Notes under the pieces: generated by a model
What the model saw: the letters and a program-made list of their open reading frames with translations, nothing else
Told to the model about the DNA's origin: nothing
Databases searched by the model: none
Shown: positions 924 through 36,350 of the stretch, piece by piece
How positions within the stretch are numbered: the stretch's first letter is position 1
Layout of the letters: the number at the start of each line of letters is the position of its first letter
Position numbers and translations under genes: made by a program
Virus record (IMG/VR): IMGVR_UViG_3300025009_000949
Coordinates: 1-37,862 of that record
Strand: one strand, 5' to 3'
Length of the DNA stretch: 37,862 nt
Origin: a virus

Positions 924-3551
924 ATGAAAAAGTTTTTTCAGTCTACTGCACTGGTACCTCAAAATAATCAAACAGACTACATAGACGCAGAATGGTACGA
1001 AACAGAGCAAAAACAGTGCTTTAATCTCCGCAGTCACTACCAAATAGTCGCGCCTGAGCATAAGGTTATCCGCATCCGTCCGGACACCAGCGCAAGAAAC
1101 TGGCATACGGAGGATATAGCAAAAACTATTACGGATGCCTTCAAAATCCCACTTGACCGATTCTACTTCGAGGACGGTTGGAAACTCAGGTACCGGCAAC
1201 CAGACCGGGCAACCTGGGAGATTGATTATACCCACGGGAGTATAGATTTCCTTTTGACAGTGCCGGGGGACAGGGTAGATAGCTGGGTGCGTCGGTTGTC
1301 TGGGATTTGGGATAAGTCAACTATCGCGGTCGATGATGATTACCAGGAAGGATGGGAGCCTGACAAAACAACTATATATGAGTTAGTTTACCGTAAACAC
1401 GATATGTATTCTCTTATGACCGACAGCAAAAACAACCTACCACTGCCGTCACTCTTACAGGCAGTAAAATCTCTCGAGGTAGGCGACAAAGCCAAAGTAT
1501 TCGTATTTTTCGACCCTGTAGGGAGGTTGGACTGGAACGCGACATACCAAGAAGCATGGGAAATGCTCAGGAACGGCAGGCAACCGGTCAAAAGAAATGG
1601 GGATGCTAGAGGTTATTTTCGCCTGGGCCTGACGTGTGCCGGGCAGTTTATGCAAGAGACCATGATCGGTATCGGTGACATGATTAAGTCGGATAATCGC
1701 GAAAACAAATACGCCAAGAAAGAAGTAGACCCGGAGGCAGGCCTGTTTGCCATAGAGAATCTAACATCGGCAACCAAGCGTAAGGGCAGTATGGGGGCGC
1801 TTAGAACATACCTTTGGGTAATAGCTCAGTCAGATGACAGGGGGCGCAGGGAGTCAACTGCCCGCACTCTAACAGCTGCCTTTGCTGACTTGGCATCCGA
1901 TAACGAATTTGAGGCGAGGGAGACAAAGAACCGGAAGAAGAAGGCGACTGTCATAGAAACTATAACCACAAGGAGGTTGCCAAAGATGAAATTTAACTAC
2001 AGCATTTTAAGCGCAGCAGAGGCAGGGAAGTTAATTCAGATACCAGGCCGGGAGTTGCAAGAGGATTACCCACAGGTGAACGGCATTAAACTGCAGGAGG
2101 TTACGCTGCCCGCAGAGCTGTTCGGTACTGTTGGTATACCCTTAGGGAAAGTGACAGATAGGGGAGTCACAAGGGAAGCAAAGTTGCCGATACACGATCA
2201 CGACATCGAATGTAAAGGAGAGATAAATTATGGCAATATGGGAAGTGGTAAAACGGGGAGGGGAATCACTGTTGCTGTTACCGCTGTTACTTATGGTAGA
2301 ACCGTTTTTTACTTTGATATGGCAGATGGTGATGCCATTAATCGGGTGAGGGATGCTTTGCCGATTGAGATACCAGATCATAAGATAATTGACCTTGATT
2401 TTGGCAACAAGCACTGGCCGATACCGCTAACATTGACCGATATAGCAATCCGGGGTAGTGCTGGAGATGAATTAGACGCTTTAGATGCCGCTGAAAAAAT
2501 GACTGACTACATATACACTTTCATAAACCAGCTGGCCAACAGTGAGTTTTCAGACCGCATGGAGTATTTTTTAACACCAGTCGGTAAAGGCGTATTGACA
2601 GATCCGCGCCGAGGACTGTTGGACATTGTTTTAGCGCTGTCCTCTCCGGTCTACCGGGAGGAACTATTGCAAGACCCAGTTATTCTATCCCAGCCGGAAG
2701 TAGTTGACGTGCTAAGAGAGTTACAGCAAAAGGCCGTCAAAGGTAGTGACAAAACTCTAGTACAGCCAATATTGGATAGGCTTAATTTGTTGGCAGGGAA
2801 AAGAACACTAGCTAACATTTTTCTACAGCAGGAAAAGCTAGTTGACGGCAAACCTGCTTTGGATTTTCGCCAGATGATGGATGAAGGCGGGTATTTTGTC
2901 GGGCTCCGCATACCCAAAGCTGAACTGGGCAAAGACGGGGTTAACCGGGTTGCATCGTTCCTGATGGCCAAGATATGGTTGGCCACATTATCACGCCTGG
3001 ACACGGCACAGAAAGATCGTAAACCGTTTTACACCATCATTGATGAGCCGCACAACTGTTTAGAGGGTACCGGTCCCTTGCTCGATGGTGAGATAGGAGT
3101 CGAAGCGAGAAAATATAGAAACAAAATGATTTTCCTTGCTCACAGCGCGGAGCAGTTCGGAAAGTACAAGGCTGGGATTTACGCCGGGGGGCCGTTCTTT
3201 AACTTTTTCAAGACGGAGCTGCAGAAGACTTTTACCGACCATGCTGAAAAATTAAATCCTTTAGAGGCCCGGAGCTTATATGAGCAGTTGCCGAAGCGCT
3301 GGGTGGCAGCCTGCAAGATGGAGCTACCTGGGACGGATAGCCTGCCTGCTTTTATCTGCCGCATGACAGCGCCGCCAAAGGCAGTCAAGGATCGGAGTTA
3401 TCGGCGGGCTGAGTGTTCTAAGATGTTCGGGAGGCATTGGAAAGATGTTACTAAAACTATACAGGATAAAAGACGGATCACGCTGCAGGATGAGGCTTGG
3501 CGGGAGGAAAGGCAGGCTGAGGTTAAGGAGGCGCGGAAGGCAAAGAAATAG
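924..3551 (+). CDS. conjugation-type P-loop ATPase (VirD4/VirB4/HerA superfamily)
   Basis: 875 residues. A clear Walker A, GNMGSGKT, lies at about residues 437-444, and a Walker B, TIIDEPH, at about 703-709. The roughly 430-residue N-terminal part without motifs, followed by a RecA-like motor domain with a large insertion, fits the DNA-pumping ATPases of Gram-positive conjugative elements (HerA/FtsK/VirD4 superfamily). Such proteins move DNA to or through a membrane channel using ATP. I see no N-terminal transmembrane segment, so it may act as a soluble motor or bind a membrane partner. The ATG at 924 has GAAGGTG upstream. A terminator follows the stop directly. It is outside the integrase-repressor module, so it may belong to a neighbouring mobile element rather than to the phage. 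The superfamily is secure; the exact subfamily is not. Confidence 0.75.
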   Translation: MKKFFQSTALVPQNNQTDYIDAEWYETEQKQCFNLRSHYQIVAPEHKVIRIRPDTSARNWHTEDIAKTITDAFKIPLDRFYFEDGWKLRYRQPDRATWEIDYTHGSIDFLLTVPGDRVDSWVRRLSGIWDKSTIAVDDDYQEGWEPDKTTIYELVYRKHDMYSLMTDSKNNLPLPSLLQAVKSLEVGDKAKVFVFFDPVGRLDWNATYQEAWEMLRNGRQPVKRNGDARGYFRLGLTCAGQFMQETMIGIGDMIKSDNRENKYAKKEVDPEAGLFAIENLTSATKRKGSMGALRTYLWVIAQSDDRGRRESTARTLTAAFADLASDNEFEARETKNRKKKATVIETITTRRLPKMKFNYSILSAAEAGKLIQIPGRELQEDYPQVNGIKLQEVTLPAELFGTVGIPLGKVTDRGVTREAKLPIHDHDIECKGEINYGNMGSGKTGRGITVAVTAVTYGRTVFYFDMADGDAINRVRDALPIEIPDHKIIDLDFGNKHWPIPLTLTDIAIRGSAGDELDALDAAEKMTDYIYTFINQLANSEFSDRMEYFLTPVGKGVLTDPRRGLLDIVLALSSPVYREELLQDPVILSQPEVVDVLRELQQKAVKGSDKTLVQPILDRLNLLAGKRTLANIFLQQEKLVDGKPALDFRQMMDEGGYFVGLRIPKAELGKDGVNRVASFLMAKIWLATLSRLDTAQKDRKPFYTIIDEPHNCLEGTGPLLDGEIGVEARKYRNKMIFLAHSAEQFGKYKAGIYAGGPFFNFFKTELQKTFTDHAEKLNPLEARSLYEQLPKRWVAACKMELPGTDSLPAFICRMTAPPKAVKDRSYRRAECSKMFGRHWKDVTKTIQDKRRITLQDEAWREERQAEVKEARKAKK

Positions 3552-3553
3552 CT

Positions 3554-3578
3554 AACCCGAAAGGGTTTATTTTTTTTT
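3554..3578 (+). terminator. intrinsic terminator
   Basis: AACCC (3554-3558), a GAAA loop, GGGTT (3563-3567), then TA and ten T's. It closes the ATPase gene. Confidence 0.75.
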
Positions 3579-3592
3579 CAGTGAAATACTGC

Positions 3593-3621
3593 TTGACATT
3601 AAGCGTACACCAGTGTACACT
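3593..3621 (+). promoter_or_regulatory. promoter with operator between -35 and -10
   Basis: A perfect TTGACA (3593-3598) is followed after 17 bp by TACACT (3616-3621). The spacer holds the perfect palindrome GTACAC-CA-GTGTAC (3605-3618), which runs into the -10. A short 14-bp palindrome inside a core promoter just ahead of an RHH gene is the usual layout of an autoregulated RHH repressor. That this RHH protein binds here is inference. Confidence 0.7.
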
Positions 3622-3656
3622 ATAGATAATAGAAAACACGAGAGGGGATACGACAG

Positions 3657-3986
3657 ATGACAATACCGGCAAACAAGGCCCGCATAATCATAACCGTAAC
3701 CAAAGAAACAGAGCAAAAAATTGACGGGGTAGTAGATAAAATAAATAGCACCAAAGTTGGTAGGGTAAAACGTAGTGACATAGTAAACGCAGCTCTGGAA
3801 GAGTACTTGGGGAGGAATGAGTTTATCAGACAGCAATATAAAAATATTGTAGCTGACATACCCACATCCACAAGATCCGTTTTGGAGGGTAGGGCGAGTC
3901 AGTTATTGCAGTTTGCCAGATACGTAAGCGACAAAGAGCTGGAAATTAAAATAGCTGATTTATACATAAAATTAGCATCGGGGTAG
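3657..3986 (+). CDS. ribbon-helix-helix (CopG/Arc-like) regulator
   Basis: 109 residues. Residues 8-50 read as an RHH domain: a strand (ARIIITVTKETEQKID), a helix, then a basic turn (GRVKRSDIVNAALEEYL), the pattern of CopG/Arc proteins that insert a beta ribbon into the major groove as dimers. The remaining 60 residues are helical and may mediate oligomerisation. GAGAGGGG lies about 10 nt before the ATG. The gene stands alone between two terminators with its own promoter and a 14-bp palindromic operator, so negative autoregulation is the simplest reading. It could alternatively control the neighbouring ATPase operon or be a ParG/Omega-like stability protein. Confidence 0.75.
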   Translation: MTIPANKARIIITVTKETEQKIDGVVDKINSTKVGRVKRSDIVNAALEEYLGRNEFIRQQYKNIVADIPTSTRSVLEGRASQLLQFARYVSDKELEIKIADLYIKLASG

Positions 3987-4053
3987 GTGCTGGAATCCAT
4001 ACGCCAACCTGTACAAGCCTGTTTTTCCAATAAAATCAATAAAACCACTTACT

Positions 4054-4086
4054 ACCCCATCTCTCTTAAGATGGGTATTTTGTTTT
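4054..4086 (+). terminator. intrinsic terminator, possibly bidirectional
   Basis: CCCATCT (4056-4062), a 6-nt loop, AGATGGG (4069-4075), then TATTTTGTTTT. It lies between two convergent genes. Confidence 0.7.
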
Positions 4087-4095
4087 CCCCGTTTC

Positions 4096-4287
4096 TTAAT
4101 CCGGCCATAAATAATCCACGCTTTTCCCCAATGCCTTAGCTATCCGTTTTGCCGTGGAGAGGTATATCTCTTTTTGATCATTAATTATTTTGCTGATTTC
4201 ACCTTGACGGATACCCGTCCTTTTTGATAATTCTTCCTGTGTAATTCTCTTAAGTAACATAACTTCTCTCAGTCTGTTCAATGTCAT
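4096..4287 (-). CDS. Xre-family HTH regulator
   Basis: 63 residues from ATG 4287 (a GTG at 4290 is an alternative). The whole protein is one helix-turn-helix domain: a helix (LREVMLLKRI), then TQEELSKRTGIRQGEISKII as the HTH, then helices ending in LGKSVDYLWPD. This is the compact Xre/Cro fold that binds operators as a dimer. The frame stays open far upstream to 4701, but that part is the shadow of the divergent gene and the operator region. Its promoter region carries 18-bp operator-like repeats, so it probably represses itself and the divergent gene. Confidence 0.75.
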   Translation of the reverse strand: MTLNRLREVMLLKRITQEELSKRTGIRQGEISKIINDQKEIYLSTAKRIAKALGKSVDYLWPD

Positions 4288-23438: not shown

Positions 23439-23768
23439 TTGGACTTATTAGTAGGTGAAAATTTAAAAATCACATCGGATCGTTTGAATTATGTTATTGA
23501 GCAGCGCAGAGTCAAAACTGAAGGAGAGAACATCGGGGACGAATACTGGGTTAACGCCGGTTACTACTCCCAATTCGACGAAACTATTTTTAAGCACCTG
23601 ATTAATTTAGGTTTAAGGACATCCGATCTGAAAGGCGCCAGGGAGATACTTGATTACTTGGCCGAGATTCGCAAAGACATTTTAAAACTGGATTTCCAGG
23701 AGTGCATCAAGAAGCTGAACCAGGAACCGGTTGAATTGACTGAAACTGATGACGATATGCTCGGATGA
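23439..23768 (+). CDS. conserved phage protein with DDMLG tail
   Basis: 109 residues, TTG 23439 behind GAGGGTG. The pattern LKITSDRLNYVIEQRRV, GDEYWVNAGYYSQFDE, then a helical LRTSDLKGAREILDYL is familiar from short Firmicute phage proteins of unknown function. It ends ETDDDMLG, and that stop overlaps the next start (ATGA). The final codons provide the ribosome site for the next gene. Confidence 0.65.
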   Translation: MDLLVGENLKITSDRLNYVIEQRRVKTEGENIGDEYWVNAGYYSQFDETIFKHLINLGLRTSDLKGAREILDYLAEIRKDILKLDFQECIKKLNQEPVELTETDDDMLG

Positions 23769-24067
23769 TAGCAGCACTTATAAACCGTAGACGTAGGCAG
23801 ATATTAATACACTCTTATATTTATTACAAACTCGGAACGTCTATAATTGCTGACCATACTTGGGATAAGTGGGCAAGGGATTTAGTTGACTTGCAAAAGG
23901 CCTATCCCAAGATAGCTAAAAGTTTACCCTACCACGAAGTATTTAAGGACTTTGATGGTTCATCAGGATTTTACTTGCCAGCCGACGAATGGACGGTAAA
24001 CAAAGCTTTACAGTTGTTACGAATACATGACATGGTACAAAAAGAGATCGATGACATGCTGGGGTGA
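23765..24067 (+). CDS. phage LigA-related small protein with DDMLG tail
   Basis: 100 residues. NRRRRQILIHSYIYYKLGTS, IIADHTWDKWARDLVDLQKA and FKDFDGSSGFYLP match a phage family sometimes labelled 'DNA ligase LigA-related' because the HxxYYxxxxxxISDxxYD-like opening resembles the N-terminal Ia domain of NAD ligase. It lacks any adenylation core, so it is not a ligase by itself. It ends QKEIDDMLG. It sits just ahead of the SNF2 helicase fragment. Confidence 0.65.
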   Translation: MIAALINRRRRQILIHSYIYYKLGTSIIADHTWDKWARDLVDLQKAYPKIAKSLPYHEVFKDFDGSSGFYLPADEWTVNKALQLLRIHDMVQKEIDDMLG

Positions 24068-24071
24068 TGGG

Positions 24072-24956
24072 TTGGATTATCAGGAATTTTTGGAGAGCAA
24101 GAAAACAGCAGTACAAAGTTGCGGATTTAAAATCAGTGAAGAAGAACTTAACCCAGGCGCTAAATTATTTCAAGCTGATATCGCCAGATGGGCGCTGCAG
24201 AAGGGCAGGGCAGCTATATTTGCCGGGACAGGATTAGGCAAGACTTTTATGCAACTTGAATGGGCGGATAAAGTTTGTGATTACACCTTCGGTGATGTGC
24301 TGATAGCGGCACCTTTGGCGGTGGCTCAGCAAACTGTTAGAGAAGGTGAGAAATTCGGTATAAAAGTAAACTACTGCCGGTGCCAAGAAGATGTAAAGCC
24401 TGGTATTAATATAACTAACTACGAAATGTTGGGTAAGTTTAATCCCGATAAATTCGAAGGTATCGTATTGGATGAAAGCAGTATTTTAAAATCTTTTACA
24501 GGAAAAGTAAGAACTCAGATTATCGAGACGTTCCGAAATACGCCTTACAAATTAGCTTGTACAGCTACACCTGCACCCAACGATATTATGGAGTTATGCA
24601 ATCATGCAGAATTTTTAGGTGTGATGACGCGAGCGGAAATGCTGGCCATGTGGTTTGTCCATGATGGTGGTGATACATCGAAATGGCGGCTAAAGGGCCA
24701 TGTCAAGGAGAGTTTTTGGACATGGGTTGCTATTTGGGCGGTTATGTTGCAGAACCCTAAAGATTTGGGGTATGACGGTACGGAGTATGAACTGCCTGAG
24801 CTGAATATCATTCCTGTTGTTGTAGAAATGGACGGGCCTGAAGCAAGGACTATGACGGAGCGCAGGAAGGCCCGGAAGGAAAGTATTGATCTGAGGGTTG
24901 TTGCAGCTGCAGAAATAGTTAACCGGATATTAAATGCGGAGTGTGATTTATTATAA
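24072..24956 (+). CDS. SNF2-family helicase, N-terminal half (split gene)
   Basis: 294 residues from TTG 24072. It carries the first RecA-like domain only: Q-like region near FQADIARWAL, Walker A FAGTGLGKTF (about 50-59), motif II VLDESS (about 132-137) and motif III ACTATPAPND (about 159-168). Translation then ends at TAA 24956, ten bases into an inserted HNH gene. The missing half (motifs IV-VI) is encoded at 25530-26042. Removing 24947-25534 (588 bp) rejoins both halves in frame as ...NAEC-D-SLLIWC.... The split falls between the two helicase lobes, so both polypeptides could still assemble. Function otherwise: ATP-driven DNA remodelling in replication or recombination. Confidence 0.85.
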   Translation: MDYQEFLESKKTAVQSCGFKISEEELNPGAKLFQADIARWALQKGRAAIFAGTGLGKTFMQLEWADKVCDYTFGDVLIAAPLAVAQQTVREGEKFGIKVNYCRCQEDVKPGINITNYEMLGKFNPDKFEGIVLDESSILKSFTGKVRTQIIETFRNTPYKLACTATPAPNDIMELCNHAEFLGVMTRAEMLAMWFVHDGGDTSKWRLKGHVKESFWTWVAIWAVMLQNPKDLGYDGTEYELPELNIIPVVVEMDGPEARTMTERRKARKESIDLRVVAAAEIVNRILNAECDLL

Positions 24957-25561
24957 AGAAGTGTAAAACTTGCGGTGAGTTAAAAGCATTATCTGAATTT
25001 ACGAAGGCCGCAGGCTGCAAAGATGGGGTTAGAGGGGACTGTAAAAAATGTCACAGTATAAAGAATACCGCCAATAGTGAGTCTAAGAAACAAAAACGTA
25101 AAACTTACATGGCAGAATATTCTAAAAATAATAGATCTAAATTCATAAGAACTCCTGAGCAGAAAGGAATTTATAACACCAGACGCAGAGAAGAATACGC
25201 AAGTAATAACGAGTTTAGAAAACAAGTAAAAGAAAAGGTAAAAAACTGGCAACATAATAACCCTAGTAAGCGAAGAAATCAGAGATTATCTAAATACGGC
25301 ATTACCCTCGAACAATTTAACGATATGCTAGAAAAACAAAACGGTAAATGCGCCGTATGCGGGTACAGTGATACATCGGATACTAATTTTTTCCCTGTGG
25401 TGGATCACTGCCACGATACAGGTAAAGTTAGAGGTATTTTATGCATGAACTGCAACATGGGCATAGGAAAATTTAAAGATAACGAAATTTATCTTTATAA
25501 CGCTTTGGTATACCTAAAGGGGGATATTATTGGACAGCTTGTTAATATGGTGCAATCTTAA
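24950..25561 (+). CDS. HNH/endonuclease VII-like homing endonuclease inserted in helicase gene
   Basis: About 203 residues if started at ATT 24950 or 202 at ATA 24953; both follow GGAGTG. The first ATG (25109) would cut off the conserved N-terminal zinc ribbon KKCKTCGELKALSEF with a later CKKCH, so a non-standard start is favoured. The C-terminal nuclease core reads YGITLEQFNDML, CAVCGYSD, VVDHCHDTGKVRGILCMNCN, matching the endonuclease VII/HNH beta-beta-alpha-metal fold (His, Asp, CxxC ligands present). The gene lies precisely at the helicase break and its 3' end reads 27 nt into the second half in another frame. This is how free-standing homing endonucleases split host genes. Confidence 0.85.
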   Translation: MIKKCKTCGELKALSEFTKAAGCKDGVRGDCKKCHSIKNTANSESKKQKRKTYMAEYSKNNRSKFIRTPEQKGIYNTRRREEYASNNEFRKQVKEKVKNWQHNNPSKRRNQRLSKYGITLEQFNDMLEKQNGKCAVCGYSDTSDTNFFPVVDHCHDTGKVRGILCMNCNMGIGKFKDNEIYLYNALVYLKGDIIGQLVNMVQS

Positions 25562-26042
25562 TTCGGAGCAAGACGCTCTTGAAAAGGCGCTTGGTAGTTT
25601 GTGTGTATCTGTGCGCGGAACAACTCCAAGCGATAAAAGAATTGATTACATGCACAAATGGGTTAGCGGAAAGATACCTATTATGGTATCTAAACCATCT
25701 GTTTTTGGTTGGGGTATGAACTGGCAGCACTGTCACAATATGATATTTGTCGGACTGTCTGATAGTTTTGAACAGTATTTCCAAGCAGTGCGCCGGTGCT
25801 GGAGGTTTGGACAGACTGAGAAAGTTAATGTGTACGTGGTTACCGCATCGACAGAGGGCGCGGTAGTTGATAACATCAAGCGCAAGGAAGAAGAATTTAA
25901 TTCCATGCTGTCAGGGATGATAGCGGCAACACAGGAGATAACGAAAGAGAACATACAAGCTACTTTGAGAGATACGACAGTTTATGATCCGCAGGTGCCT
26001 ATGGTACTACCGGATTGGTTAACAACACAAAAGACTGCTTAA
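25530..26042 (+). CDS. SNF2-family helicase, C-terminal half (split gene)
   Basis: 170 residues from TTG 25530, which has AAGGGGG 6 nt upstream supplied by the inserted sequence. It holds the second RecA-like lobe: motif IV LLIWCNLNSEQDAL, motif V VSKPSVFGWGMNWQ and motif VI QAVRRCWRFGQTEKVNVY (about 86-103). It lacks any Walker A, so alone it cannot work; it likely pairs with the 24072-24956 product. The end overlaps a perfect 14-bp inverted repeat terminator. Confidence 0.85.
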   Translation: MDSLLIWCNLNSEQDALEKALGSLCVSVRGTTPSDKRIDYMHKWVSGKIPIMVSKPSVFGWGMNWQHCHNMIFVGLSDSFEQYFQAVRRCWRFGQTEKVNVYVVTASTEGAVVDNIKRKEEEFNSMLSGMIAATQEITKENIQATLRDTTVYDPQVPMVLPDWLTTQKTA

Positions 26043-26058
26043 TTAGCAGTCTTTTGTG
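26026..26058. terminator. bidirectional terminator over two convergent stop codons
   Basis: CACAAAAGACTGCT (26026-26039), loop TAATT, AGCAGTCTTTTGTG (26045-26058): a perfect 14-bp stem with U-rich descending arms on both strands. It contains the stop codon of the rightward helicase half (TAA 26040-26042) and of the leftward HTH gene (TAA 26041-26039). Confidence 0.85.
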
Positions 26059-26212
26059 AAGGGTTTGGTTGGTCCTTATCTATTATCCAGCGGTTATCAA
26101 TTTTACGCGCCAAGACTTTACCGGCAGCGCATAAGTTTTTAATATAACCGGGTTTTAAGGACCAGAGCAGGGCAGCTTCATTGACGCCCATAATTTTATC
26201 AAGAATGTTTAT
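26039..26212 (-). CDS. small helix-turn-helix protein with apparent ATA start
   Basis: 57 residues if started at ATA 26212 (AGGTGA 6 nt upstream); the first ATG (26191) would give 50 and has no ribosome site. LDKIMGVNEAALLWSLKPGY and IKNLCAAGKVLARKIDNRWI, ending IDKDQPNPSQ, is a common Firmicute excisionase/MerR-like single-HTH protein. Its ATA overlaps the TAA of the upstream, IS-interrupted gene (ATAA). It is the last gene of a leftward cassette. Confidence 0.65.
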   Translation of the reverse strand: MNILDKIMGVNEAALLWSLKPGYIKNLCAAGKVLARKIDNRWIIDKDQPNPSQKTAN

Positions 26213-26256
26213 GTCGTTTCACCTACCTTGTAAATATATTCTCGACGCTGTAACCA
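26209..26256 (-). pseudogene. 3' fragment of gene interrupted by the IS element
   Basis: Directly after the IS right end the frame reads WLQRREYIYKVGETT and stops at TAA 26209. Joined to the 28066-28227 fragment it completes a 69-residue protein. Confidence 0.7.
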
Positions 26257-26423
26257 GTGAACTACCCCCGCTTACGTTCCACTAAGAAGCGGGGGCTTCC
26301 ATGGGAACATCAACGAGCGTTTCCTGATTCATCAACCACGGCCTGCCGCTACAAAGAGCAATAGGTCTTACACGGCCTCCAGCAGGCATGATTTCGGGCG
26401 GTCCCCGCCCTACAAGTATATAT
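26257..26423 (-). ncRNA. probable omega-RNA (reRNA) at tnpB 3' end
   Basis: The 165 nt after the tnpB stop form GC-rich hairpins (GGGCGGGGACCGCCC-type pairing near 26393-26410 and the right-end stem at 26265-26295) and end in TAGTTCAC at the IS border. By analogy with ISDra2-type TnpB systems this RNA would extend into the flank, using TGGTTACAGCGTCG and following bases as guide, i.e. the interrupted gene itself. Confidence 0.65.
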
Positions 26424-27524
26424 CTAAGCCGCTAGCATTTCTAAGCCACGGCGTTCTATCAATATGGCTGACACCAAATCCCTGGGCATAACCAGTCCAC
26501 AAGCAGGGCACCGGTGTACTCTGACACTCAAATCCTTTGGCACATTGGCACCACAAAGACAGGTCTGGGAAGTGCCATGTGGAGGGACAGGGAAAAATAT
26601 TTTGCCGTATCTGCGGCATTTGTACTCCACAAAGTTTCTGAATGTACCCCATGAAGCATCATGGATGCTTTTAGCTAGGTGGTGGTTTTTGACCATGTTC
26701 TCGATCTTTAGATCTTCCATGATGATAATGTCATGGTTTTGAACCACGTCTAAACTGGTCTTGTGTAGAAAGTCTTTTCGTTGATTAGTTATCGTAGCAT
26801 GAAGTTTAGCCACTTTAGTTTTGGCTTTCCCTCGGTTGTTAGAACCTTTCTTTTTGCGAGAAAGTCTGCGCTGTTGTTTGGCTAACTTCTTTTCGGATTT
26901 ACGATAATATTTTGGGGTTTCTATCTCTGTGCTATCAGACAGTACAGCAAAATGCTCAAGACCCACGTCTATTCCAGTGGATTTGGTACTGTTAGTAAGA
27001 TTTTCGGGTACTTCCACTTCGGCGGTCAAATTAGCATACCACTTGCCACCGTGATACTTTATATTAACCCTGGATATTTGGCTAGCATCAAATTCCCGGT
27101 GAGTTGTCATTTTTACGAAACCAATCTTAGAAAGATAGATTTTAGCTGGCTTAGAGAAAGTTTTCTTTACAGCATCCACTTGAGGATAGGTAAACGAAGT
27201 ATAGTGGTCACGGTTTTTGAACCGGGGGTATCCCGCTTCTTTGGCAAAAAACCGCTGATAGGCAAAGTCTAGCCGATGCAGAGTATCCTGTAATACCTGG
27301 CTATGAACTTGCTTGTATTCCGGGTGTTCTTTAGTATAGTCCGGCAACATATTCTGCTGTTTATTATATGTCAACCCCTGGCCAGTTTCTTTATACACAC
27401 GCTGACGCTCAGATAAAGACCAGTTATAGAGTTTCCGGCAAAGTTTTAGTGTATGGAACATTTTTCTCTGTTGCTCTTTGGTCGGACGTATTTCAAACCG
27501 GTAGACAATTTGCAAATAATTCAC
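26424..27524 (-). CDS. tnpB: TnpB RNA-guided nuclease of IS200/IS605 element
   Basis: 366 residues. The N-terminal OrfB HTH-like region is YRFEIRPTKEQQRKMF. The RuvC parts are GIDVGLE (Asp, about 188), IIIMEDLKIENM (Glu, about 273) and a final RDLVSAIL (Asp near 350). A zinc ribbon, CLCGA...CPACG, lies between. TnpB is an omega-RNA-guided DNA nuclease, the ancestor group of Cas12, and helps keep the element in place. All three acidic residues are seen, so activity is plausible. Its ATG overlaps the tnpA stop (ATGA). Confidence 0.93.
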   Translation of the reverse strand: MNYLQIVYRFEIRPTKEQQRKMFHTLKLCRKLYNWSLSERQRVYKETGQGLTYNKQQNMLPDYTKEHPEYKQVHSQVLQDTLHRLDFAYQRFFAKEAGYPRFKNRDHYTSFTYPQVDAVKKTFSKPAKIYLSKIGFVKMTTHREFDASQISRVNIKYHGGKWYANLTAEVEVPENLTNSTKSTGIDVGLEHFAVLSDSTEIETPKYYRKSEKKLAKQQRRLSRKKKGSNNRGKAKTKVAKLHATITNQRKDFLHKTSLDVVQNHDIIIMEDLKIENMVKNHHLAKSIHDASWGTFRNFVEYKCRRYGKIFFPVPPHGTSQTCLCGANVPKDLSVRVHRCPACGLVMPRDLVSAILIERRGLEMLAA

Positions 27525-27925
27525 CTCTTTTCACCCTGGGTTTCAATGTACTTCTTAATTACTTCGATGGGTACACCACCTGTTGTTAATAAACAAAAAC
27601 TTTGCGACCAAAAATATTCTTTCCATAGCTGCTTTCTAACTTCCGGAAACTCTTTTTTAATAAGTCTGGATGATGCACTTTTGAAGGCATTGATATACTT
27701 AGAAATTTCCGTATTAGGGTGAGCCTTGAACAATATGTGTGCATGGTCTTTGTCATGGTTGTATTCCAGGAAGCTAATATTATATTTTGGTGCAATATAC
27801 TCACCAATTTCTTTGATACGGTTTGCTATTGTGTCGTTTATAACTTTTCTGCGGTATTTTACTACCAAAATTAGATGATATGTAAGTAAGAAGACTGAGT
27901 GGCTATTTGTATCAAGTTTGCTCAA
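27521..27925 (-). CDS. tnpA: TnpA Y1 HUH transposase
   Basis: 134 residues. LTYHLILVVKYRRKV is the family opening; the HUH motif is DHAHILF (His61, His63) and the catalytic tyrosine is Tyr126 in EVIKKYIETQ. It cuts and joins single-stranded IS ends as a dimer, favouring the lagging-strand template at replication forks. Full length. It lies upstream of tnpB in the same direction. Confidence 0.93.
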   Translation of the reverse strand: MSKLDTNSHSVFLLTYHLILVVKYRRKVINDTIANRIKEIGEYIAPKYNISFLEYNHDKDHAHILFKAHPNTEISKYINAFKSASSRLIKKEFPEVRKQLWKEYFWSQSFCLLTTGGVPIEVIKKYIETQGEKR

Positions 27926-28065
27926 TAATAATCAACCCTTCGTTATTGCGACTGATTATATTTTGCCACATCATAGAGACTTCGGCAACCATTATTTTTA
28001 GCATACAAAACAAGGCCGCCATTCATCCCACCACCTTAGAGGTGGGGGAATTCTGGCGAGTTTTG

Positions 28066-28227
28066 GTTAAAAGTTGTTGCTTCCATGATTGTTATACCCG
28101 TTACGGGTATAACGTCGGCATGGTTTAAGTTTTTAACTTCATTAGCGGTATTGTAAGCTAACAGATATATAATCCCTCTTCTGATGTTAACAGCGTAGTA
28201 TTTACTTCTTTTGTATGTGTTTAACAT
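28066..28227 (-). pseudogene. 5' part of small gene interrupted by IS200/IS605
   Basis: 54 codons from ATG 28227 (MLNTYKRSKYYAVNIRRGII, then YLLAYNTANEVKN and on to EATTFN) until the IS left end. The present frame runs on into the IS for a few more codons and stops at 28036. The intact form would be 69 residues ending WLQRREYIYKVGETT. TAATG overlap with the upstream gene and a GGAGG site show it was a normal operon member. Function unknown; the beta-strand-rich start suggests a small regulatory or binding protein. Confidence 0.7.
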
Positions 28228-28406
28228 TATCTAACCTCCTTAACGGTGAAAGGTCCCGTGTATTCATCATTATCTTCTAACCAGTTTAGTATTTCGCCAA
28301 CGGTTACATCGTTGATATCTTTATCCAAAAAGTCACAAATACAATTTTCGAGAATTGGTTGTTGGCCTGATACTATTTGACCTGCTAATTTTCTATAGTT
28401 TTGCAT
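28227..28406 (-). CDS. hypothetical protein, first gene of leftward cassette
   Basis: 59 residues from ATG 28406, which has AAGGAGG 8 nt upstream; in-frame extension to 28439 is not supported. Sequence MQNYRKLAGQIVSGQQPILE, then acidic helices (DFLDKDINDVTVGEILNWLE). Low pI and small size are reminiscent of phage anti-host or regulatory proteins, but there is no family match. Stop overlaps the next start. Confidence 0.6.
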   Translation of the reverse strand: MQNYRKLAGQIVSGQQPILENCICDFLDKDINDVTVGEILNWLEDNDEYTGPFTVKEVR

Positions 28407-28454
28407 TGTGTGTTCCTCCTTATTTATGCGTATTCGCACTTACTTTCTATATTT

Positions 28455-28483
28455 ATAATAACATATGCGTTAAGACATGTCAA
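28455..28483 (-). promoter_or_regulatory. leftward promoter for the small cassette
   Basis: On the minus strand TTGACA (28478-28483), 17 bp, TATTAT (28455-28460), near consensus. The spacer holds AACGCAT, also part of the 7121-7132 operator-like 12-mer, and the palindrome TGCG-TATT-CGCA lies downstream (28427-28438), so control by the phage repressor or Cro is possible. Confidence 0.7.
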
Positions 28484-28505
28484 TACTTTTTTTTGAGGTG
28501 AATTT

Positions 28506-29450
28506 ATGAATGTTTTAAACCAGTCAGTCACCCGTGATTATGCGATTTATCATGGTGACAGCATGGAAGTTATACGGGAGATACCGACAGATTCTTTACA
28601 TTGTTCTATATTCTCCCCACCGTTTGAGAATCTTTATACCTACTCGAACTCTATCAGGGACTTGGGCAATTCTAAGAATCAAGTCCAGTTTATGAAGCAT
28701 TTTAGATTTTTGATTGGTGAACTGTATCGGTGTATGATGCCTGGTAGGTTGGTAGTTATACACTGTATGGACTTACCAAAAATGAAGAGCAGGGACGGGG
28801 TTATTGGTCTTAGGGACTTCCCTGCTATTGTCCGCAAAATGTTTGAAAATGCCGGTTTTATATATCACTCAAAGGTAACTATTTGGAAAAATCCTGTTAC
28901 TGAGATGCAGAGGACAAAGGCGCTGGGCCTGCTCCACAAAACAGTGGTTAAAGATAGTGCTATGAGTAGGCAAGGTATGGCAGATTACCTTGTAGTTATG
29001 CGGAAACCTGGAATTAATCCTGAAGCGATATCAGGAGAATTTACACACTACGCAGGAAATGACCCGGAGGGTGTTTTCGGATACCAGCAGCAGGGTAACG
29101 ATGTTAAAAAATCTATCCAGATATGGCAGCGTTACGCATCTCCTGTATGGTTTGATATAAACCAAAGCAATACGCTACAGAGGAAAAGCGCAAGGGATGA
29201 AAACGACGAAAGGCATATAGCACCTTTACAGCTTGACACTATCGAGAGATGTCTGCAGTTATGGAGCAATCCAGGAGATACGATACTTGATCCGTTCGGT
29301 GGTATCATGTCAGTTGGTTACAAGGCCGTATTGATGGGCAGAAGATTTGTCGGGATTGAACTAAAAGATAGTTATTACAAACAGGGCGTTGGTAACATGG
29401 AAAACGCTGTAGCTAAGAGAGATAAAGAACTTGATGACATGCTGGGGTGA
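28506..29450 (+). CDS. beta-class DNA methyltransferase (N4-C or N6-A) with DDMLG tail
   Basis: 314 residues. Motif IV comes first, SIFSPPFENLY (SPPF at 37-40), and motif I late, LDPFGGIMSVGYKAVLMGRR (about 261-280), the beta-class order. SPPF-type motifs are usual in N4-cytosine enzymes but also occur in N6-adenine ones, so the product base is uncertain. GAGGTG precedes ATG 28506. It diverges from the leftward cassette. It ends KELDDMLG, whose last codons give the ribosome site for the next gene. Confidence 0.9.
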   Translation: MNVLNQSVTRDYAIYHGDSMEVIREIPTDSLHCSIFSPPFENLYTYSNSIRDLGNSKNQVQFMKHFRFLIGELYRCMMPGRLVVIHCMDLPKMKSRDGVIGLRDFPAIVRKMFENAGFIYHSKVTIWKNPVTEMQRTKALGLLHKTVVKDSAMSRQGMADYLVVMRKPGINPEAISGEFTHYAGNDPEGVFGYQQQGNDVKKSIQIWQRYASPVWFDINQSNTLQRKSARDENDERHIAPLQLDTIERCLQLWSNPGDTILDPFGGIMSVGYKAVLMGRRFVGIELKDSYYKQGVGNMENAVAKRDKELDDMLG

Positions 29451-34708: not shown

Positions 34709-34996
34709 ATGAGAGAGTCAGCAATCGAAAAAGCACTAAAAGATGGCGTTAAAAAACATGGAGGAAAAGCATATAAATTCGTTTCTCCCGGGATGTCAGG
34801 AGTGCCAGATCGGATTGTTCTTTTACCAGGAGGCAGATTGTTTTTTGTAGAAACTAAAGCACCTGGTAAAAAACTAGAACCTTTACAGGCAAAACGTAAA
34901 AAAGAATTAGAGCAATTTGGTTTTAAAGTTTTTAAAATAGATTCTTTTGCAGGGGTTGACGAATTTTTAAAAGAGGTTTTGCAAGATGGAGTTTAA
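34709..34996 (+). CDS. VRR-NUC nuclease
   Basis: 95 residues. PGMSGVPDRIVLLPGG (Asp34) and LFFVETKAPG (Glu48, Lys50) with a following Gln60 give the PD-(D/E)XK core of stand-alone VRR-NUC proteins, the same fold as the nuclease of FAN1. They are structure-specific DNA nucleases, forming dimers. Conserved position between VapE and SNF2 helicase in Firmicute phages points to a joint role in replication or recombination. Overlaps the next gene by 11 nt. Confidence 0.92.
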   Translation: MRESAIEKALKDGVKKHGGKAYKFVSPGMSGVPDRIVLLPGGRLFFVETKAPGKKLEPLQAKRKKELEQFGFKVFKIDSFAGVDEFLKEVLQDGV

Positions 34997-36350
34997 ACCG
35001 CATGTTTACCAAGATTACGCAAAGCAAAAAATAATAACGTCTGATATAGCGGGATTGTTTTTAGGTTGTGGTTTAGGCAAGACGGTATGTACACTAACAG
35101 CAATATCAGAGCTGCAATATGACTACTTCCACGTCGCAAAAACGTTAGTCATAGCACCACTCAGGGTTGCAGAAGACACCTGGGGTAGTGAGGTGGCGAA
35201 ATGGGACCACTTAAAACACCTCCGGGTATCAAAGGTATTGGGATCTGCGAATGAGCGTTTAAATGCGCTACAAACATCTGCCGACATTTACGTAATCAAT
35301 CGTGAGAATGTTGTCTGGTTGGTAGAGCTTTACGGAAAGCATTGGCCATTCGATATGGTAGTCATTGACGAGCTGTCCAGCTTCAAATCACACCAGGCAA
35401 AACGATTTAAGGCACTACGGAAGGTAAGGCCGATTGTTGACCGCTTGGTAGGCCTCACAGGCACACCGGCGCCCAACGGATTGATTGACTTATGGGCACA
35501 GATTTATTTGCTTGATCGTGGCGAGCGGTTAGAGAAAAATATAACCGGATATCGTAACAGATACTTTGACCCGGATAAGAGAAATCAGCAGGTAGTATTT
35601 AGCTACAAACTTAAAGACGGGGCAGAAGAAGCGATATACAAAAAAATATCTGATATCTGTGTAAGCATGTCAGCTAAAGATTGGCTTGACTTACCGGAGC
35701 GGATTAACAATACCGTTACTGTTAAGCTGTCAAACGCTGAAATGGACACATACAACAAGATGGAGCGTGACATGCTTCTCCCGTATGAGCTTGGTGACGT
35801 TGTGGCAAACACAGCAGCAGGCCTGAGTAACAAACTATTACAGATGGCTAACGGGGCTGTATACAACGAAAATGGAGAAGTACAGGAGATCCATAAGGCA
35901 AAGCTATTAGCGCTGGATGACCTGATCGAAGCAGCTAATGGAAAACCTGTTATGGTGTTTTACCATTTCCAACACGACTTAAGCAGGTTGCAAGAACATC
36001 TTAAAAAGCTAAAGCCGCGAGTGTTAGAAACATCAAAGGATATCAAGGATTGGAATAATAAAAAAATTCAGATCCTTTTGGTGCATCCGCAATCGGCGGG
36101 TCACGGACTGAACTTACAAGCAGGCGGGAATACAATAATTTGGTTTAGTCTTACATGGTCGTTAGAGATTTACCAGCAAGCTAATGCCAGATTGGACAGA
36201 CAAGGCCAAACCGAAAGCGTTATCGTTCACCACTTAGTTACCGAGGGGACGATAGACGAGGACGTTATGAGTTCACTTGCAGGCAAGGAAGAAGGACAGA
36301 CAGCGCTGTTGGAAGCTGTCAAGGCACGAATAGAAAAATTAAAGGGGTGA
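34986..36350 (+). CDS. SNF2-family DNA helicase (intact)
   Basis: 454 residues. Walker A LGCGLGKT (about 26-33), motif II VIDELSS (DE at about 128-129, a DELS box), motif III GTPAPNG (about 159-165), and motif VI QQANARLDRQGQ (about 397-408) are all present, with both RecA lobes in one chain. It is the standard phage SNF2/DEAD-like helicase paired with VRR-NUC. Compare the split copy at 24072-26042, which is a different sequence, so this phage carries two such enzymes. Confidence 0.93.
   Translation: MEFKPHVYQDYAKQKIITSDIAGLFLGCGLGKTVCTLTAISELQYDYFHVAKTLVIAPLRVAEDTWGSEVAKWDHLKHLRVSKVLGSANERLNALQTSADIYVINRENVVWLVELYGKHWPFDMVVIDELSSFKSHQAKRFKALRKVRPIVDRLVGLTGTPAPNGLIDLWAQIYLLDRGERLEKNITGYRNRYFDPDKRNQQVVFSYKLKDGAEEAIYKKISDICVSMSAKDWLDLPERINNTVTVKLSNAEMDTYNKMERDMLLPYELGDVVANTAAGLSNKLLQMANGAVYNENGEVQEIHKAKLLALDDLIEAANGKPVMVFYHFQHDLSRLQEHLKKLKPRVLETSKDIKDWNNKKIQILLVHPQSAGHGLNLQAGGNTIIWFSLTWSLEIYQQANARLDRQGQTESVIVHHLVTEGTIDEDVMSSLAGKEEGQTALLEAVKARIEKLKG

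Follow-up and report, generated by a model that had tools for sequence, protein, structure and literature searches.

An Endonuclease VII-like HNH gene inside a phage SNF2-like helicase gene: nested relatives and a putative two-polypeptide motor

Organization of the interrupted helicase locus

The window, i.e. the whole stretch of DNA analyzed here, corresponds to an entire IMG/VR virus record of 37,862 bases and carries the following features at the helicase locus:

24072..24956, plus strand: helicase half A, RecA lobe 1 with motifs I-III (TTG start 24072, TAA 24954-24956)
24927..24946, plus strand: 20-bp upstream flank in which similarity to the sister (85% identical) is lost; the probable co-conversion tract has its 5' end here
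24938..24941, plus strand: GGAG, candidate ribosome site for the HNH frame (duplex energy -6.1; 8 nt 5' of ATT 24950)
24950..25561, plus strand: Endonuclease VII-like HNH gene (putative ATT or ATA start; CxxC, DHCH and CxxCN intact)
25516..25523, plus strand: AAAGGGGG, Shine-Dalgarno site of half B that lies within the HNH gene, 6 nt 5' of TTG 25530
25530..26042, plus strand: helicase half B, RecA lobe 2 with motifs IV-VI (TTG start 25530)
25535..25712, plus strand: downstream exon segment of about 180 bp unlike the sister ('EQ-type'), co-conversion tract

A sequence-only reading had interpreted this locus as a single helicase broken between its two RecA lobes, and the open reading frames, their phases and their coordinates proved to be as it described. 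Motif inspection likewise placed motifs I-III in 24072-24956 and motifs IV-VI in 25530-26042, as that reading had claimed: half A contains intact AGTGLGKT, LDESS and TATP motifs, and half B starts just 5' of motif IV (IWCNLNSEQ) and also possesses motifs V and VI. The TTG start of half A at 24072 is associated with a Shine-Dalgarno (SD) energy of -5.0. Both halves match the DNA helicase family PHROG 62, half A at profile positions 688-954 (1e-37) and half B at positions 1005-1148 (3.7e-25), and half B additionally matches Pfam Helicase_C above the cut-off (1.7e-8). Against the Pfam SNF2-rel_dom profile (PF00176), half A reached 20.0 bits, which is under the cut-off of 24.9. The two halves share one phase and the HNH frame lies at -1 relative to the helicase. 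Excision of 24947-25534 had been proposed to restore the helicase frame, and removal of these 588 bp indeed yields a single frame of 475 amino acids; however, the join is not gapless: the stretch from IVN to IWC is four residues longer in it than in L165 (IVN-MSDEPWL-IWC), which is the nearest empty allele of the EQ type. The true ends of the insert are therefore not exactly 24947 and 25534.

An open HNH frame spans 24947-25561. Its product matches Pfam Endonuclease_7 (PF02945) at 1.2e-22, with 80.0 bits versus a curated cut-off of 23.6, in agreement with the earlier proposal that the insert encodes an endonuclease VII-like HNH protein, and it matches PHROG 2633 at 4e-36. The zinc cysteines and the DH.H and CN residues of PF02945 are present in the alignment, and a PDB search with the profile of the HNH family gave matches to Hpy99I and T4 endonuclease VII that are confined to the zinc/HNH core. 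Since the frame contains no ATG, GTG or TTG 5' of 25109, the position of its first in-frame ATG, a full-length product would have to start from ATT 24950 or ATA 24953. The GGAG located 8 nt upstream suggests that ATT 24950, which overlaps the stop of half A, is probably the start.

Uninterrupted relatives and probable co-conversion at the insertion site

Unsplit homologues, for which the sequence-only reading had proposed a search, were found in about 150 uninterrupted relatives. The join was spanned in one HSP by 154 of approximately 158 viral helicase loci, three of which (L071, L174 and L223) were later found to be invaded. The closest relatives, L003 and L004, are 85% identical to the window at the nucleotide level and possess one frame of 463 amino acids and no HNH gene; half A is 93% identical to them at the amino acid level.

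The blastn alignment of the window with L003/L004 stops at 24926 and resumes at 25713. Comparison with L004 resulted in pN values of 0.046 and 0.039 outside this tract versus 0.49 over the first 57 codons that follow the insert, and in dN/dS values for the exons of 0.05 (N exon 0.052) and 0.03, which mix the time before and after the split. The EQ-type exon (LNxEQ..) was present in 13 of 14 helicases invaded at the same site, just before motif IV, versus 3 of 114 distinct uninvaded helicases (Fisher 4e-14, in a test partly suggested by the same data), and the invaded phages are divergent. This link may reflect either transfer of the exon together with the insert or a preference of the nuclease for this exon type, both of which would point to homing.

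A similar tract was found in cultured phages, where the invaded Gordonia phages Malisha and Squiddly provide a natural replicate. Over about 840 bp (gene positions ~793-1634) comprising the insert and its flanks these two phages differ in one base, while beyond the tract they are 82-88% identical downstream and, for much of the exon upstream, 62-93% identical, some stretches there being almost the same. The uninvaded helicase gene of Holliday is unlike both of them just after the insert position and alike again further on. Signs of flank co-conversion and a sporadic distribution, both of them features of mobility, were observed. The pattern is as homing predicts and suggests that this position in the helicase gene has been targeted by homing repeatedly, the downstream exon being co-converted in the process.

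Nested and split relatives

Searches with the HNH gene and with the helicase halves resulted in 16 loci, including the window, in which an Endonuclease VII-like HNH gene lies inside the same helicase, and L402, L415 (with L403 as its counterpart in the genome collection), L418 and the phages Malisha and Squiddly (L501/L502) were added later. Two of these, L402 (Rhizobium) and L403 (Mesorhizobium), were the nested loci among 12 loci listed in a scan of genome contigs. Plasmids gave only weaker matches, with less than 80% of the query covered. The nested state, with an open helicase frame and the HNH gene out of frame, was observed in 18 other loci including Malisha, Squiddly and rhizobial prophages, and the split architecture in the window and two other contigs, L166 and L167, the exact split of the window being present in one genome only and each split lineage being represented by a single genome; these counts derive from the best 80 loci per scan, and the ratio of split to nested loci is no census. 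Since a nested, uninterrupted reading frame is the commoner invaded state, the split represents one of two ways for this element family to coexist with the gene that hosts it. The sequence-only reading, which is partly supported, did not include this nested state.

Two insertion sites are used, one just before motif IV (site 1) and one just before motif V (site 2; L071, L223, L251, L276, L323 and L418), and at site 1 the HNH gene is found in either of two alternative frames. All 16 initial loci have their N- and C-terminal helicase halves in phase with each other, and 13 of them have no helicase-frame stop anywhere in the insert, so that a single ORF of about 600-700 amino acids or longer results. 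When each HNH gene was shuffled synonymously, 39 helicase-frame stops were expected in total for these 13 nested loci, and 0 were observed. For some single loci this null is weak (P0 up to 0.84), since codons that could form stops are already scarce in their codon usage. In the split loci the stops are close to expectation, with 10 versus 12.1 in the window, 18 versus 17.9 in L166 and 14 versus 15.8 in L167. The split inserts are generally the most A+T-rich (GC 26-46% versus 44-58% in nested inserts), which would fit a loss of open frames through drift in AT-rich phages.

The Rhizobium pair L246/L402 showed a dN/dS of 0.068 in the HNH frame and of 1.8 for the insert in the helicase frame, with 0.06 and 0.04 in the exons. 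This contrast shows that the HNH gene and the helicase exons are under purifying selection, whereas the constraint on the insert as read in the helicase frame is mainly to avoid stops. For the L246 helicase, AlphaFold2 modelled two high-confidence lobes and an insert (residues 313-486) with a pLDDT of about 30, so that the nested insert is predicted to add a disordered loop of approximately 175 residues to the helicase. The top PDB matches obtained with Foldseek for this model, which represents a relative and not the window protein, are SNF2 remodelers.

The closest relatives of the window HNH on viral contigs reached at best 46-52% in the matched segment. In the HNH tree, the window groups with L166 (split), with L245, L174 and L243 (nested, site 1), with L418 (nested, site 2), and with L244, a free HNH gene located just downstream of an intact helicase. 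Most forks of this tree are weakly supported, the support for the window group is modest, and the split label changes at least two times. The grouping suggests that the nested and split states both occur within one HNH lineage.

A 12-base stretch close to TAAAYTGGCAGC (10-12 of 12 matches) was noticed directly or shortly 5' of the HNH ATG in eight inserts (L170, L174, L246, L402, L418, L071, L251 and L501), which cover both sites and both relative frames. It is absent from the three split loci and may mark where the element itself begins (5') or serve as a translation signal. At L249, the HNH frame (3309-3839) is fused to a truncated N-terminal helicase remnant and followed by a second HNH gene (3840-4271), which looks like a decayed invaded locus. 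Among 188 other relatives, the alternative frame is open in six, all inside terminase genes or terminase inteins. These nested +1-frame Endonuclease VII-like HNH genes in phage terminase genes lie at L102 3635-4345, L150 1134-1733, L284 1368-1961, L141 738-1229, L142 1741-2232 and L124 1324-1908; five are apparently inside inteins whose own frame is open, and the L124 terminase has no evident intein motifs.

A restart site for the second helicase half

The insert had also been proposed to supply a ribosome site and a TTG start for the second half, which the analysis bears out. The AAAGGGGG site has an energy of -10.8 kcal/mol against the anti-SD, a value matched by only 0.3% of the ATG, GTG and TTG triplets in the window, and the TTG at 25530 is located six codons 5' of the motif IV Trp. 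Likewise, L166 and L167 possess ATG starts at the same distance from this Trp (SD -5.9 and -5.8, respectively). A start six codons before the motif IV Trp with an SD of -5.8 or lower was therefore present in all three split loci and in none of the 11 nested site-1 loci (Fisher 1/364, a test that, like the exon-type test, was partly suggested by the data it describes). The best start within 12 codons in the nested site-1 loci, with -5.2, is found in Malisha one codon before the Trp. The strong restart site before motif IV suggests that separate translation of lobe 2 is a likely compensation for the broken helicase frame, and both halves are likely to be translated separately.

Interpretation and alternative explanations

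The insertion, the uninterrupted and nested relatives, the restart site, the tract boundaries and the purifying selection on the nested HNH genes and the exons, as read from the DNA, suggest the following course of events. An Endonuclease VII-type HNH homing gene would have invaded the linker between motifs III and IV of a phage SNF2-like helicase via a double-strand break and its repair, bringing along about 180 bp of the donor's downstream exon, and the insert would be removed neither from the RNA nor from the protein. With stops in the helicase frame of the insert, one mRNA would give rise to three products, half A, the HNH nuclease and half B. Translation of the nuclease, presumed active in cleavage, would probably be coupled to the termination of half A and start from the ATT or ATA, whereas half B would be made from TTG 25530 via the strong Shine-Dalgarno site inside the HNH gene. 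Lobes 1 and 2 would then most likely associate into a two-chain SNF2-like motor; in analogy to the precedents reviewed in PMC2988022, halves A and B probably reassemble into one enzyme, which may be active. In most invaded relatives, the HNH gene would instead be read out of frame and the open helicase frame would supply a disordered loop. Taken as a whole, from the homing invasion to the three products, the two-chain motor and the nested alternative in the relatives, we regard this explanation as probable, even though the TTG start of half B, the HNH gene without a standard start and a second intact helicase speak against it. That a single HNH family resides unspliced in this helicase, either nested or split, and that the window encodes a natural two-polypeptide SNF2-like motor derived from or existing alongside the nested forms, is a proposal that we favor only slightly.

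An unlikely alternative is that the insertion killed the helicase, leaving a decaying pseudogene with useless or untranslated fragments. The phage encodes a second, intact SNF2-like helicase at 34986-36350 (PHROG 62, 2e-175; PF00176, 1.8e-23), which might suffice and make the loss tolerable, and which weakens any argument from essentiality. Moreover, the window is a single example, the TTG of half B and the ATT or ATA of the HNH gene are weak starts, and the insert has about as many helicase-frame stops as chance would give. However, the exons have neither frameshift nor stop, all motifs are intact, and the exon dN/dS versus L004 is 0.03-0.05, with the caveat that it mixes the time before and after the split; in addition, the restart site, within the top 0.3%, is at the right place and recurs in the two other split loci and in no nested locus. 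A sequencing or assembly artefact, the true sequence being a nested uninterrupted ORF, is scarcely credible. The window is an IMG/VR record and most of its invaded relatives are nested, but ten stops spread across the insert, near the chance expectation, exceed what a few errors would produce, and the same split architecture occurs in two other contigs.

The remaining alternatives would produce one helicase chain. Mobile introns and inteins too are typically associated with homing, site specificity and co-conversion, but it appears very improbable that the insert is a self-splicing intron, or an intein, that is removed ahead of helicase production. An Rfam search over 23500-26500 for the catalytic RNA of a group I or II intron gave no family at E <= 1, and no intein motifs were seen. 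The HNH ORF fills nearly the entire 588 bp and thus leaves no room for a catalytic core, and a stop-free host frame in 13 relatives would be pointless if the insert were spliced from the RNA. Ribosomal bypassing or frameshifting across the insert, to which we attach very little probability, would be compatible with the N- and C-terminal halves being in phase in 16 of 16 loci, but the same phase is expected anyway if the split loci are related to the nested ones. The gap of 588 nt is far above known bypass lengths; in T4 gene 60, 50 nt are bypassed. Half B has its own strong SD, and a -1 frameshift from the helicase into the HNH frame was rejected, as GAT-TTA-TTA-TAA (24945-24956) contains no plausible slippery heptamer. 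Neither an intron nor an intein was found for a comparable element either (PMC11855218).

Relation to known systems

Out-of-frame HNH insertion elements were reported in 2025 for the ShiLan methylase (ShiLan domain) and for Pacc40 gp60, a helicase-methylase (PMC11855218), and Applejack represents another methylase case (PMC12613952). The invaded helicases resemble ShiLan in that an HNH gene lies in another frame inside a phage DNA-metabolism gene, without intron or intein, adds a disordered loop in the host frame and homes between phages, and Pacc40 gp60 also carries a helicase domain (PMC11855218). They differ in that the host is an SNF2-like helicase, that the HNH is of the Endonuclease VII type (PF02945) and that two sites and two relative frames are used; furthermore, in the window, L166 and L167 the host frame is interrupted by stops (10 in the window) and the gene is split, a restart site being present. 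In the text of PMC11855218, the word 'split' does not appear.

Genes split by homing endonucleases are likewise known from T4-like phages, including mobE in nrdA of Aeromonas phage Aeh1, mobA in the T4 topoisomerase gene and the split gene 43 of phages 25 and 44RR; the split NrdA of Aeh1 is active and 43A/43B of phage 25 co-purify (PMC2988022). The parallel to nrdA of Aeh1 drawn in the sequence-only reading is a fair one, as in both cases an endonuclease gene in a functionally critical region splits an enzyme gene whose two coding regions still look functional, and in the present case the gene is continuous in relatives and both halves retain motifs and starts. In contrast to Aeh1, however, the enzyme and phages are different and nested versions with an uninterrupted frame exist, and assembly and activity were shown for NrdA, whereas those of the window's halves are proposed from sequence and prediction. 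The HNH gene shares the CxxC, DH.H and CxxCN core with T4 endonuclease VII and homing-type HNH proteins of PF02945, here inside a helicase gene. In the PDB, the predicted structure of the nested relative L246 is closest in fold to SNF2/Swi2 ATPases (ISW1, CSB, Mot1 and RapA), compared to which the phage protein is small (about 460 amino acids) and has a motif II that reads DESS.

As far as the literature searched shows, the SNF2-like helicase as a recurrent host with two sites and two relative frames is new, as are the selection contrast between overlapping frames, the linked co-conversion and the split derivatives with a restart at the nested site. These cases illustrate that a selfish gene can persist unspliced inside a conserved enzyme gene and provide a comparative series of empty, adjacent, nested and split states at one gene, with cultured representatives, in which SNF2 lobes as separate natural chains and the translation of an out-of-frame nested endonuclease are now testable. 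In addition, mobile nucleases in the nested state escape annotation: gp71 of Malisha and gp64 of Squiddly are annotated only as 'DNA helicase'.

Genomic neighbourhood of the helicase gene

Just upstream of the helicase, 23765-24067 encodes a 100-aa protein consisting of only the N-terminal Ia domain of an NAD-dependent DNA ligase (PF22745, 6.7e-32). An IS605-type TnpB-like ORF (26424-27524, minus strand) is located between the helicase and a methyltransferase gene, and L003/L004 lack the entire 2.5-kb stretch 26021-28502 that contains it. The C-terminus of the helicase also differs, reading PDWLTTQKTA in the window and PDWLGGIAV in L003/L004. Several neighbouring genes end in (D)DMLG or EMLG, with gene ends including 22995 and 23768, and an exact 18-bp sequence, GATGACATGCTGGGGTGA, is common to two gene ends (24050-24067 and 29433-29450), with none expected by chance. 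In L003, an extra methyltransferase cassette ending in NMLG is present at this point, and these gene ends are a possible recombination boundary sequence.
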